This document shows positions 2,379 through 63,730 of a DNA stretch of 64,000 bases, piece after piece (the first letter of the stretch is position 1; each line of letters begins with the position of its first letter). The notes beneath the pieces were generated by a model. That model had not been told where the DNA came from and made no database searches. It worked only from the letters and a program-made list of their open reading frames with translations. The stretch spans positions 385,153 through 449,152 of the forward strand of contig NW_013171815.1 in NCBI RefSeq assembly GCF_000151665.1, written 5' to 3'. Source of the stretch: Blastocystis hominis. Lineage: Eukaryota > Sar > Bigyra > Opalinata > Blastocystidae. A program made the translations under genes and the position numbers.

Positions 2379-4600
2379 ATGTCTGCAAGGCAGTTAGCTA
2401 GATTGAGAGCTCTTATCGAAGAGAAGAAGAGAAAGGAAGAAGAAGCTAAACAGATCACACAAGAAGAAGAAGAGGAGGAGGAAGAGGAGGAAGAGGAAGA
2501 AGACAATCACCATGTTTCATTTTCCGTATTGTTATCGAAAAGAACGTGATGTTTAGGCATTTGCCTTTTCGGATGATTCAGATGATTCAGATGAGGACGA
2601 AGAAGAGGAAGAAGGTGAGCCAGAAGAAGAGAAACCTAAAGAAAAACCCAAGGCCGCGCCTAAGAAGCCTGCGGTGGCGCAAGTAACCAAAACCGCTGAA
2701 GAAAAAGAAGCAGAGGACATGGAGTACCTCGATTCGCTATTAAAAGAAACAGAAAAGGAATCATCATCTTCCTTTTCGTGGAATAGACAAGAGGAAGAGG
2801 ACGACGCATATCTAGATATCGGTACAATTCTGTGCATCAACAAAAAGTAATCTCCAAAGTTGCTCCTAATCACCAGGAAATTCAACGATGAAAAAGAAGC
2901 CGACCAGAAATTCGGCCAAGGAGACGAAGACGATGCGGTGGGCCGTGGCCAACGCATCCGCCAGCGCCACATGCAACGCGTGCTCGCTCAGTAGAATCAT
3001 GCAGGAATTGAGACACAGATCGGGCATTACAACCTCAATCTTCATCAATCCAACTCCAGGAAACGTACGTCCTCCCTCCGTGATGGGCGGCGGCTTCAGC
3101 TTTGAGCCTGTGGAAACGCCGTTCGATTTCGACAAAGGCGCGTTGGTGCATTTGGACAACCACGCGACGTTCTATTCGCTCAAAGCATCGGAGGAATATC
3201 AGAGCCTCATCGAGAAGTACAAAGTGTACAAGGCGTCGTACATCGATGGGGACATCGGGGAAATGGCGATCTCCTTCTACCAGAAATACCCCTATCTGCT
3301 CCACGTCGCTTTCGATGTTCGCTTTCGATTCGAATTCCACAGTAGCTCGCTCAAATCATGCTCTTCTACAAGAACGTCGACAACGTTTTCTCCGTTCTTC
3401 ACCAGTACTCCTCCATCATTTTTCTTCCTCTGACTCTTCGTAGATGTCTGTTCATCATCGAGAAGTCGGTGGGCTACAACTTCAATTGGACCAACGGCCA
3501 GGCGCGCTTCCTCTACTCCGAGGCCGAAAACCGGTTCGTTTTTTGCTACCTCCCGATCCTAGAATCATCTACAAAGTATTCCACCTCTATCTGCTTCTCT
3601 GTTCCCGCAAAGGCTGCTTCGAAACGGCTCTCAACGTCGCCCTGCTGCTCTACTCGTTCTTCCCGCAAGCCGATCCGATGGGCTGTCTGCTCCACATTCC
3701 CTTCCTCGCTCTCTCCAGCAAACGCTACGCTTCGATCACCCACATGGCGGAGAGCGGACTCGTTCTCGGCTCCTTCTCGCTGATTCTCCTTCCGAATTGG
3801 TCGTTCGACTACGCGCTGGCGCTTTTCAAGCAGGATCGCAAGGAGAACGCGATGGAAATCATGAAGGAGAGCTTGCTGCGATGGCCGGAAATCGTGCGGC
3901 AGCTCGTCGAGCACTCCGTCTCCGCTCCGATTCGCGCTGATTCGTAGAGTTCGCAGCTGTATGTTCCGTCCCGCGTGAAAGAACACGAGCTGTATTCGCA
4001 CAGCCCCGCGAATGGACACATCGAGCTAATGGAGTTTATTTTTGTGCAGCGCGAAGTGCAGATTTGGAGCCAATCCGAGTCGTGGACGCTTCTGATGGAC
4101 TGCATGAAGGAGCTGGTGGAGCATTTCGATGCGCAGGCGTTCGAAGAGAAGCAGACGCAGCTGCGCGAGAGCTACGAGGAGCTGGAAGAGTTCTTCGATG
4201 AGCTGAACGCGACGGCGGAGATCGAGGATTCGCTGTTGACGGTGGATCCGCAGAGTGAGCGAGCGGAAGGATTGCGAAGTAGACTACACAGATAACATTC
4301 CCGAAGTGGAGCTGCGCGATATCATCGACGATCTGCCGCAGCGGCAGATGGAAGAGCAGCTCAATGCGATGATGGTGGAGAACAACGTGCCGGCGGATCA
4401 CAATCTGTTCCGACTGTTCTTCGAAGCGTTGAATCCGAACATGAACGCGAACGAGCTCAACGATGACGACGTGGCCGCGTTGCAGGAGCAAGTTCTCGAG
4501 ATGATGAATGCACAGAATGGCGGAATGATGCAACAGCAAGCAGGAGGCGAAGAGGAGGCGGAAGTGTGGCAAGAAGATTGGAATTCCGATGACGAAGCGT
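2379..4600 (+). CDS. TCF25: TCF25 / Rqc1 homologue, ribosome quality control factor
   Basis: Rqc1/TCF25 works with the Ltn1 (listerin) E3 ligase on stalled 60S subunits. The start MSARQLARLRALIEEKK opens an acidic, lysine-rich N-terminal region, as in the family. The conserved helical core follows: ATFYSLKASEEYQSLIEKYK, then FYQKYPYLLHV, YNFNWTNGQARFLYSEAENR, and GCFETALNVALLLYSFFPQ with DPMGCLLHIPFLAL. Several introns were removed, including a 28-nt one near 4254-4281. No stop codon is encoded at the natural end. The frame ...WNSDDEA is followed by a single T at 4600, then TTCG and TGTTTATT, so TAA is predicted to be completed by the poly(A) tail. Without that, the frame would run on to 4719, into RPN7 antisense. 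Confidence 0.9.
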
Positions 4601-4626
4601 TTCGTGTTTATTGGCACAAACAATCC
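4601..4626. terminator. Back-to-back bidirectional poly(A) module, TCF25/RPN7
   Basis: The 26 nt between the two predicted cleavage bases read TTCG, then plus-strand TGTTTATT (4605-4612), two bases, then the minus-strand signal TGTTTGTG (complement of 4615-4622), then a 4-nt spacer. Both genes need their cleavage to create a TAA, and nothing else lies between them. Confidence 0.8.
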
Positions 4627-5964
4627 AAACATCCAGCGTCTTCGCAACGGTCTGCACGCGATTCATCAGAATGGTTCCCTTCGTCAGAATCTCGTCGTAC
4701 AATCGCGAGAGCGTCGTGACCGCCTGCGTCTCTACCGTGTCGTTCATCTGCGTCTCATCGTCTCTCTCTCCGCCTACCCGATCGATCTTCGCTTGGATCC
4801 TTCCTTCGGAGATGAATCGCGCCAGCTCGCTATTGATGAACGGCGTTGACACGCCGAAGCTATCCGCCATCGACTGCAGCGTGCAGCTATTCCTCACGCC
4901 TCTCCGCACTTCCGAACCATTTAAAACTATCCAGGAATTGCTGGTACGCCTTCAAACGAAGCTCGCCGATGATGAGCGAAGCGGAGGGCAGAAGATAGGG
5001 ATCCTGCTTCAAAATCGACTCCAAATCCAGCAGAGCGAGGAAGAAGTCGCGATAGCGACACTCATCGAAAGAGGAGAGAAGGTGCTGAAGCGTGGGCATT
5101 TCGAGAAGCGACATTTCGACGTCGGAAGAATTGACGAGATCGCGTTTGATGTTGGATCGCGACTGCGTCATGATCGACGAAATCACCGCGTATTTCACGA
5201 AATCGTTGAACGAAAACACGGAGAACGAGGTGAACGTGGGGATCGTGGCGCAGTACAGCTCGGCCACCTTCGTGAAGTCTTTGGAGAGCATGTAACTCAC
5301 GCCTAAATAGACCTAATGTTGAATCCAAAATGAAAAAGTCGAACGTTCAGACGGTTGCGATGCTCCCAGTCGCCCGACTCTTCCACCATTTTTTGAACGG
5401 TTTTGAGCGTGGAGGTGTACTCGGCGATGCTTTGATGGAACAGATAGACGTCGAGGATGTACATCCAAATGTCCATCTTCATGTTCTGGGACATCTTGTA
5501 GTTGATACTCTTCTTATAGACCTCAACGGCTTTGTCCTTCTCTCCGATCTCGAAATAATAGTTTGCCTAGCAATAAACAAAAAACCTAACTCGCACGATA
5601 TAGAGAAGCACATCAATGATATCATCATCACTTCCGCTCTTTTCAATTTCTTCAAGAGCTTCGCTCTTTTCTTTGATCACGCGGTCATTTTCTTCCTTCA
5701 TCGTATTATACAAATCCACGTCCATCTTATAGTCGAAGTAGTTGCACACTTCACGATAATAGGGAGCCATTTTGCGTTCTTTCACCTTTTCCAGAAGTTC
5801 GTTTTTAAGTGCGATATTTTCTCTGTCAATTGAAAGTTTGAATGAGAGAATCGATATATACATAATCTCACCTCGCTTCTTCTCCTTCTGATAACTAATC
5901 GATAACAAAGCAATCGCACGCCCTACGGATCCCATATATCGTCAATATCCATTTCGATATCCAT
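4627..5964 (-). CDS. RPN7: 26S proteasome regulatory subunit RPN7/PSMD6
   Basis: This is a PCI-domain lid subunit of the 19S proteasome. The spliced product starts MDIEMDIDDIWDP. It contains the family core KMAPYYREVCNYFDYKMDVDL, then SGDWEHRNRLNV, the PCI region with YRDFFLALLDLESILKQDPY, and the C-terminal winged helix with DSFGVSTPFINSELARFI and GRIQAKIDRV. The end ...MNRVQTVAKTLDV matches the family C-terminus (human ends shortly after MNRVQ). No genomic stop is present there: a T at 4627, spacer GGAT and TGTTTGTG predict a poly(A)-completed TAA. Introns are about 27-40 nt. The start is 105 nt from the divergent uL4m ATG. Confidence 0.93.
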
Positions 5965-21855: not shown

Positions 21856-21879
21856 GGAGTGTTTGTTCACAAACAACAG
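21856..21879. terminator. Back-to-back bidirectional poly(A) module, DDX46/CTF18
   Basis: Plus TGTTTGTT (21860-21867) directly abuts CACAAACA (21868-21875), the complement of TGTTTGTG, making a 16-bp near-palindrome. Each half is 4 nt from its own predicted cleavage base (21855 plus, 21880 minus). Confidence 0.85.
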
Positions 21880-26696: not shown

Positions 26697-27852
26697 ATGG
26701 AAGTTTATTTACTCTTATTTTCGTTTTTTATGGTACGGGATATAATTCTTATCGTACTGTTTGCAATAATGCAGATAGTAGTAGTGATATCTGCCATGTT
26801 TTTGATTTAGTTTTTTCTGCATTCTGATTTTCGGATATTCTCCACTTTCTTTAATATCGGTAATCGTCCTTCACATACCAAGAGATATGAAGTATACTCC
26901 ACAAAAGGAAAAGAGTATATTCATACTGAATGTGAAGATGTGAAATGGTCGAATATGACTCAAGCTAGATGTAATCATAACTGTGGATGACTAATAATTA
27001 GTCAATCTTCCAGAGAATTCGACCGAAAAGTTGGTGATTGTCACTACAACAGATGTATGCAAAATAGATTTGATATTTTTTAGAAGCTTCAAAAAAAGAC
27101 TCGGAATACGATTGTTTCAATGTCCATCTTACAGCAGGATCAAGCTGTTACTTCTGTTGTGTTTACAAAGAACCACAGTGTGTCACGATTTTGTTCCAAA
27201 TGGGGAGTTCGAAGCCTCCCCATTACTTCCTCAAATCACTATGGTTTGCCTATTTTTCGCGATCTTTTAACAACCGTTCAAAACGATTATCCTGGCCATT
27301 TGATTGCATTTATCAATAGCGATATTCTTTTAAATCCTCGAGCAATAAAAGTGGCACTAGCGATGTCTAAATCGTTAACACCAGGCAAAGTAATTGAATG
27401 ATTTGAAATTGTAAGATTCTAGTATTTCTTTGGTTCACGAGTTCTTTCTGCGAATGTTACCACATTGACAGATATGCCGATTTCTTCCTATGAAAGATAT
27501 TTAGGACGATTACGAGGAGTTATGCGTCATTATCGATCTTGTGTATGAATTGTGCATGAATGAATTGCTAATGATTAGGATGTTTTTATATTCCCTCCTG
27601 AGTTTGATTTCTCGTTTTTAGGTCAAGTTGTCGTTGGAAGATGGTATATTGATAATGTGGTAATGGATATGGTCCATTTACTACACTACGACTTGATCGA
27701 TCTTTCGGCACTCACTTCGATTCATCAGGGTTTTGAGACTTCGGGTTCCAAAACAGATCTGAGCGAAGATGATTTCTTTTGGAATAAGAAATACTTGAAG
27801 ACAAAAGATATCGAGAGAACCTTTTTCCTATTCAATCAATTAGTTTGTGTTT
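26697..27852 (+). CDS. Putative type II membrane glycosyltransferase, tandem copy 2
   Basis: Paralogue of copy 1. The start MEVYLLLFSFFMVRDII gives a membrane anchor. A shorter stem with RYEVYSTKGKEYIHTEC corresponds to TIYSTNKTYVRGEC of copy 1. The catalytic part repeats KLVIVTTTD, NTIVSMSILQ, HYGLPIFRDLL, AFINSDILLNPRAIK and SIHQGFETSGSK. Intron sequences in the 3' half are almost identical to those of copy 1. The end is probably ...FFLFNQLVCV with T27852, ATTC and a degenerate signal TGTTTCCT; otherwise the frame continues to a TAG at 27879-27881. Substrate unknown. Confidence 0.58.
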
Positions 27853-27877
27853 ATTCTGTTTCCTCAACAAATACGAA
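27853..27877. terminator. Back-to-back (degenerate) poly(A) module
   Basis: Plus TGTTTCCT (27857-27864), one base, then AACAAATA (27866-27873), which is TATTTGTT on the minus strand. Spacing of 4 nt to each cleavage base matches the other convergent modules, although both signals depart from TGTTTGTT. Confidence 0.5.
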
Positions 27878-63539: not shown

Positions 63540-63730
63540 ATGGATCCAAACCGTGTCTCCTTCGAGAGCGTTGTGTACGACTCTGTAAGGTTATTCTCTT
63601 TCAAATATTGCAGAATCAGCTGGATCACGCTTGTTGAGTCAACCTACCGAATATCCTTCTTTCTGCCTATCACTCACCTCCACAGACGACATTTCCACGT
63701 TTGTTTCAAATCAAACACAACACGCAAAAC
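63540..63730 (+). CDS. Possible small protein gene, structure uncertain
   Basis: ATG at 63540 opens MDPNRVSFESVVYDS, followed by a canonical GTAAGG donor and a TTGCAG acceptor (29-nt intron). After that NQLDHAC reaches a stop unless a second intron is used. One option gives a product of about 38 residues. The sequence then meets the 3' end of the minus-strand partial gene. The ATG's position 9 nt from the SMU1 start suggests a divergent promoter, but the product is unknown. Confidence 0.3.

Follow-up and report, generated by a model that had tools for sequence, protein, structure and literature searches.

In a 64,000-nucleotide stretch of the Blastocystis hominis genome (contig NW_013171815.1, positions 385,153 to 449,152 of the forward strand; hereafter the window), the convergent genes for TCF25/Rqc1 and RPN7 (PSMD6) meet at a short element, positions 4600-4627, that very probably consists of two strand-specific downstream polyadenylation [poly(A)] signals lying tail to tail. 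Such packed spacing of opposed signals is favoured, forms a discrete arrangement, and recurs at hundreds of genomic places, and the TCF25/RPN7 pair is therefore one of a class.

Stop codons made by polyadenylation are established for Blastocystis, as a preliminary description of this DNA had assumed. The poly(A) motif lies at the four-base distance in 2,333 of 2,419 genes, and 372 of the 2,419 have no encoded stop (Klimes 2014, PMC4159000); the four-base distance between T and signal has also been reported independently (PMC4360255), and created stops occur in 15-26% of genes (Klimes 2014, PMC4159000; Gentekaki 2017, PMC5608401). When the motif and two upstream T residues of the legumain 3' untranslated region (UTR) were changed in an ST7 reporter, expression fell 324-fold (PMC6395660).

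The letters first described for the site, T4600-TTCG-TGTTTATT-GG-CACAAACA-ATCC-A4627, match the window exactly, and on each strand a one-change version of TGTTTGTT lies exactly 4 nt downstream of an in-frame T; the Blastocystis rule allows up to two changes and an in-frame T, TA, or TG. On the plus strand the predicted final genomic base of the TCF25 mRNA is T4600, where T plus AA would give TAA; its downstream signal, TGTTTATT, occupies 4605-4612 with one mismatch, the consensus and distance being those of Klimes 2014 (PMC4159000). A 2-bp GG spacer (4613-4614) is followed by the RPN7 signal at 4615-4622, which reads TGTTTGTG on the minus strand, again with one mismatch, and the predicted final genomic base of the RPN7 mRNA is the minus-strand T at 4627. 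Among cuts tested after each of positions 4598-4602, a TCF25 stop is made only at 4600; an RPN7 stop is made at 4627 and also one base on (after 4626), and the remaining one-base slips tested for the two genes give lysine codons and no stop. Neither frame contains a stop ahead of its own signal, the next in-frame genomic stops being TGA at 4717-4719 (plus strand) and TGA at 4459-4457 (minus strand). Position, frame, and homology support the earlier proposal that both stops would be created by polyadenylation; the predicted cleavage sites 26 bp apart and mature transcripts that would not overlap are supported as well.

Pfam and PDB sequence matches identify TCF25 and RPN7 as two convergent protein genes flanking the element. 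The 3' part of the TCF25 gene (3540-4599, plus strand) has exons to 3917, at 3948-4254, and at 4283-4599, separated by GT-AG introns whose lengths, as read in the sequence, are 30 and 28 nt; these lengths fit subtype 7 (ST7), in which the intron mode is 30 (Gentekaki 2017, PMC5608401). It matches the Pfam Tcf25 family (PF04910) with E 4e-30 on the spliced part and E 2e-21 on one exon, and a solved Rqc1 chain (9ofv_v) with E 0.005; this Pfam match reaches no further than residue 200 of the 327 in the query, and for the last exon by itself neither Pfam nor PDB gave a significant match. The C-terminal part of RPN7 (4628-5820, minus strand), whose last intron of 30 nt was read from the sequence at 4777-4748, matches the Pfam families RPN7 (PF10602) and PCI (PF01399) and a solved PSMD6 chain (12bm_Y, E 4e-38). 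Query residue 201 of 203 pairs with PSMD6 residue 387 of 389, which places the last residue before T4627 at the homologous C-terminus. The readings are ...NRVQTVAKTLDV followed by T4627 for RPN7, and ...EDWNSDDEA followed by T4600 for TCF25. The suggestion that each gene's conserved C-terminus ends at its created stop holds for RPN7, by the PSMD6 end, and for TCF25 goes beyond the data outside close relatives.

The searches turned up three TCF25 relatives, all of which keep an EDWNSDEE tail followed by a residue with a T-first codon, either directly or after one A. In P0001 and P0002 (90% identity) the ...NSDEEA tail continues into FRVYWHKQ, the read-through of the module. In P0003 (59% identity over 55% of the query) ...NSDEE is followed by YTVWYKQYTHP; under codon degeneracy no other of the 193 segments compared in P0003 accommodates both motifs in register (at most two mismatches), the gap being -1, where the gap is counted between the two eight-base signals. 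In antisense, the same stretch can encode the final 14 RPN7 residues and, after them, a T-first codon. This evidence is the compatibility of a protein with the motifs and not a reading of its DNA, and it suggests that the distant relative keeps the convergence, both signals, and both created stops, with the gap changed from 2 to -1. Among RPN7 relatives, P0020 carries an identical read-through (WIVCANKH) and P0022 (46% identity) ends at the homologous place. A further relative, P0023, reads ...VQTIEKTLDV and then WFELFFKEW plus a long open frame unlike the window's sequence, and is perhaps an RPN7 3' end beside another neighbour. Searches gave no relative of the RPN7 query in viral contigs and none of the TCF25 query in genome contigs, the relatives found being proteins alone. 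The site at 4600-4627 is a real and probably conserved variant of bidirectional 3' ends.

Chance is a poor account of the pair within the window. Opposed signals with at most one mismatch each and a gap of -2 to 5 occur three times (at 4605, 21860, and 63698), compared with a mean of 0.04 in 200 dinucleotide shuffles, none of which reached two, and with 0.39 expected under independent placement of the motifs present in the window; exact TGTTTGTT occurs 29 times, compared with 2.0 in shuffles, a motif density that also fits ST7.

The preliminary description had guessed that further pairs spaced 0-2 bp apart would be found genome-wide. A scan of 18.7 Mb in 40 contigs bears this out, the range being narrowly bounded: exact signals face each other at gaps 0-2 in 44 places, against 1.8 expected and none in the control, the expectation of 0.61 per gap being that of random placement of 3,329 and 3,403 signals (Gentekaki 2017, Table 2, PMC5608401). 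By gaps of 0, 1, 2, 3, 4, 5, and 6 the counts are 8, 17, 19, 5, 3, 2, and 1, and at gaps 7-33 they total 16 (16.4 expected). Gaps 3-33 hold 27 distinct pairs (control 4), kept from 41 rows after removal of 14 that were TGTT-microsatellite repeats or second copies at one site; gaps 34-64 likewise hold 21 distinct pairs (control 4), kept from 31 rows after removal of 10. Pairs at gaps of 7-64 bp are no more frequent than site density predicts. Signals in the opposite order number 10 at gaps 0-30 (18.8 expected, control 19), with two at gaps 0-2.

Further counts, with the six-base core TGTTTG, are raw and include some microsatellites and duplications. Three bases between cores (gap -1) occur 144 times (control 2) and four to six bases (gaps 0-2) 221 times (control 6), so that the preferred spacing is found at 365 places; among the 50 matches listed of the 221, 21, 7, and 22 have four, five, and six bases, respectively. 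Outside this range there are 24 core pairs with 0-2 bases between (gaps -4 to -2), 92 with 7-12 bases (control 11), and 246 with 13-43 bases (control 88). With gene directions taken as random, 6,020 genes would give about 1,500 convergent pairs, of which 365 would make up about a quarter, an estimate from raw counts. Three pairs of loci (L034/L055, L040/L052, and L011/L027) have identical or similar flanks at separate genome places, L052 being reversed relative to L040; these are modules carried along in duplicated segments.

As a test of whether the packed pairs are gene ends, the base just ahead of the four-base spacer was scored for a T able to make a stop. Such a T is present at 56 of 78 half-sites from 39 exact sites and at 30 of 40 from 20 gap -1 sites, compared with 16 of 40 half-sites in wide pairs and 33 of 72 single signals; pooled, the modules give 86 of 118 and the controls 49 of 112 (Fisher P 6e-6). 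The 39 exact sites are those of the 44 left after exclusion of three microsatellite sites and two duplicated segments (the gap counts keep all 44), and the gap -1 sample is the first 20 of the 144 in listing order. The wide-pair control comprises 20 pairs taken from the listing's C1 part, where microsatellite rows and a number of others were skipped by eye, and the 72 single signals were drawn from the window and from 19 of the loci of 3 kb, a sample that is not random. Of the 86 half-sites with T, 44 have a stop-making frame that stays open over 45 codons; for the other two frames the numbers are 29 and 21. A codon-usage model for the coding strand did not reliably separate sense from antisense frames on known exons, and the stop-making-frame test was used instead.

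T is found on both sides at 20 of 39 exact sites and 11 of 20 gap -1 sites. When at least 20 open codons in the stop-making frame are also required on both sides, 13 of the 39 exact and 8 of the 20 gap -1 sites remain, the other two frames giving 8 and 2 (exact) and 3 and 0 (gap -1), and wide pairs giving 1 of 20 (other frames 0 and 1). Pairs resembling TCF25-RPN7 are therefore a recurrent minority, by a frame test that is noisy. Pfam families were matched on both sides at two further sites, VPS11 opposite RPN1 and Maf opposite ribosomal L31, and at a gap-4 site a bromodomain gene lies opposite a sub-threshold PH match.

The RPN1 site offers a view of how a stop may be lost. Among the 21 RPN1 relatives, 19 extend to the C-terminus at the expected motif. 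Of these, eleven terminate at the exact codon where the Blastocystis genome has only T, and six have a T-first-compatible residue there followed by residues able to encode TGTTTGTT without mismatch (in two of the six, P0024 and P0044, seven of the eight letters could be tested). The other two, P0040 and P0042, fit neither pattern; P0042 reads ...EEKKKKQQQMEEEE beyond the usual end, with neither termination nor a T-first codon there. Of the two relatives outside the 19, P0025 lacks a stretch ahead of WIVC and P0043 ends early. Depending on the lineage, the same codon thus resembles either an encoded stop or T plus tail.

Several observations weigh against reading the packed pairs as abutting poly(A) signals of convergent genes. 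Both signals at 4600-4627 carry a mismatch, and the cleavage at 4600 and 4627 is predicted from position, frame, and homology. One or both sides lack T at 19 of the 39 exact sites and at 9 of the 20 gap -1 sites, so that many modules are not doubly stop-less, and at the Maf/L31 site a stop is encoded on the L31 side. The excess of open frames is modest (P 0.005), and opposite-strand frames are commonly open in this genome. The reversed-pattern controls for wide gaps (4 at gaps 3-33 and 4 at 34-64) fall below the density expectation, so that the "random level" at wide gaps rests on site density. Finally, the median ST7 intergenic spacer is 546 bp (Gentekaki 2017, PMC5608401), so that the sharp peak is not what general compaction by itself would predict.

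In the favoured mechanism, the RNA of each strand would present its own UGUUUGUU-type element to the cleavage machinery, which would cut four bases upstream, after the T with which the lost stop codon had begun, AA then coming from the tail. This T-plus-tail mechanism is shown for Blastocystis in general (Klimes 2014, PMC4159000), and at TCF25/RPN7 we infer it from position, frame, and homology. Because cleavage is so precise, intergenic DNA can shrink until the signals touch; at the packed limit 23-26 bp would remain between cleavage sites, and at TCF25/RPN7 neither side would have a 3' UTR. The sharp spacing may reflect either erosion to a physical limit or selection against overlapping opposed transcription. 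A stronger version, in which the packed pair is itself a unit under selection (23-26 bp tail to tail, with a hard spacing rule, serving by a rough count about a quarter of convergent pairs and driving the loss of encoded stops in both partners), is a tentative proposal and somewhat doubtful; a possible reason for such a unit would be a need to keep cleavage complexes on opposed RNAs, or opposed polymerases, from overlapping.

A different account, which we consider improbable, treats the palindrome as a single unit that acts as a bidirectional terminator, whether in the form of an RNA hairpin, a DNA cruciform, or a dimeric DNA-binding site. The sharp spacing would suit it, with inverted repeats having 0-2 bp between their arms at 44 sites, as would folds of -3.2 to -4.5 kcal/mol at gaps 0-2 and the 51-nt minus-strand RNA at the TCF25/RPN7 site (-15.2 kcal/mol, z -2.12, with 7 of 200 shuffles folding at least as well); the plus strand at that site, however, gives z -1.00 and the module at 21860 z -0.07, and the commonest single spacing (gap -1, 144 sites) folds weakest (-0.8 kcal/mol, z -0.04). 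Nor is complementarity kept by matched double changes: at core base 6 there are 82 one-sided and 4 matched double changes (two of them identical in sequence), with 4.6 doubles expected if the halves were independent (raw counts, against 365 unvaried). The base-6 control is high (26 per strand), and its subtraction lowers the expectation to about 1, some of the 4 also being background, so that a weak coupling of the halves would be compatible with the counts. An A-C mismatch interrupts the would-be stem at TCF25/RPN7, and base 7 keeps the motif T in 59 of 100 halves (among the matches listed, 50 of the 144 gap -1 sites). After folding, spacer letters, and variant combination, the palindrome is not favoured. 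Since the variants of the two halves combine roughly independently and the commonest spacing has the weakest hairpin, the site is on balance better described as two signals than as one element. Of the "shared bidirectional module" of the preliminary description, what stands is that both genes are predicted to end there; the element itself behaves as two abutting strand-specific signals, and it is not special to this pair.

The true 3' ends could instead lie elsewhere, if splicing joined the last exons to others downstream that encode stops and the paired motifs were incidental. Early ST7 gene models did use such introns, which Klimes 2014 (PMC4159000) called "artificial". This is very unlikely: RPN7 stops at the homologous C-terminus, as does the 46%-identical P0022. 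In eleven RPN1 relatives the protein ends at the codon where the Blastocystis genome has only T, and the motif pair is improbable by chance according to the shuffles.

TCF25 belongs to the Rqc1 family, which has a role in ribosome quality control, and the preliminary description had imagined a circuit in which stop-less TCF25 mRNA from mis-cleavage acts back on that pathway. Least probable of all, this can point to the poly-lysine, stop-less frame that would follow a one-base cleavage slip and to the T-first codon after the tail in the 59%-identical P0003, but it finds no support here: with created stops in 15-26% of genes (Klimes 2014, PMC4159000; Gentekaki 2017, PMC5608401) one is expected by chance and one gene means little, RPN7 and RPN1 have them too with no quality-control role, and full read-through reaches the encoded TGA at 4717, so that small cleavage slips would be needed to make TCF25 mRNA stop-less.

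Other opposed pairs lie elsewhere in the window. A second module, TGTTTGTT directly abutting CACAAACA (gap 0), occupies 21860-21875; its plus-strand gene is DDX46/Prp5-like (chain 6y50_p, E 9e-12) and has a created stop as judged by frame, and its minus-strand gene reads ...VRQPATIRDLF TAA with a 1-nt 3' UTR and gave no match in the searches made with it. An opposed pair, CGTTTGTT and TGTTTGAT, lies at 63698-63717 with a gap of 4, the minus side reading ...SVLAKLA TAA, and a one-mismatch pair, TGTTTATT and TATTTGTT, lies at 27848-27873 with a gap of 10.

Precise 3' end formation can let a nuclear genome shrink far, to 23-26 bp between the predicted cleavage sites of opposed genes, and in some opposed pairs neither side would have a 3' UTR or an encoded stop. 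Gene models are often wrong at such ends (Klimes 2014, PMC4159000), and opposed TGTTTG cores with 3-6 bases between them provide a rule for correcting them. How RNA polymerase II stops where two genes meet without room between them now becomes a testable question.

TCF25 and RPN7 are ordinary cases of the made stops of Blastocystis, with a TGTTTGTT-type signal, the four-base distance, and TAA from T plus AA (Klimes 2014, PMC4159000; Gentekaki 2017, PMC5608401). Klimes 2014, unlike the present analysis, handles genes singly, and the terms "convergent", "opposite strand", and "overlap" are absent from its main text; Gentekaki 2017 reports 95 overlapping gene-model pairs in ST4, one shown to be separable by the motif. 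A literature search, with most subscription journals and preprints outside its scope, returned no description of fixed-spacing opposed signals in Blastocystis. In yeast, bidirectional cleavage/polyadenylation sites similarly let convergent genes end in one short region (PMC3875857), but in Blastocystis two strand-specific elements stand in fixed register and both encoded stops can be missing. Yeast inverted repeats at poly(A) signals (PMC6420913) are likewise short palindromes at 3' ends, discussed there as DNA structure and nucleosome exclusion, whereas the Blastocystis halves vary more or less independently. Convergent Arabidopsis genes (PMC3032780) also have a common 3' end region, with long overlapping transcripts and alternative sites, and the abstract of that study mentions neither fixed spacing nor created stops. 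Stop-making polyadenylation is thus already known, as are convergent genes of yeast and Arabidopsis with bidirectional or common 3' ends; the packing of the opposed signals is what the literature searched did not describe.
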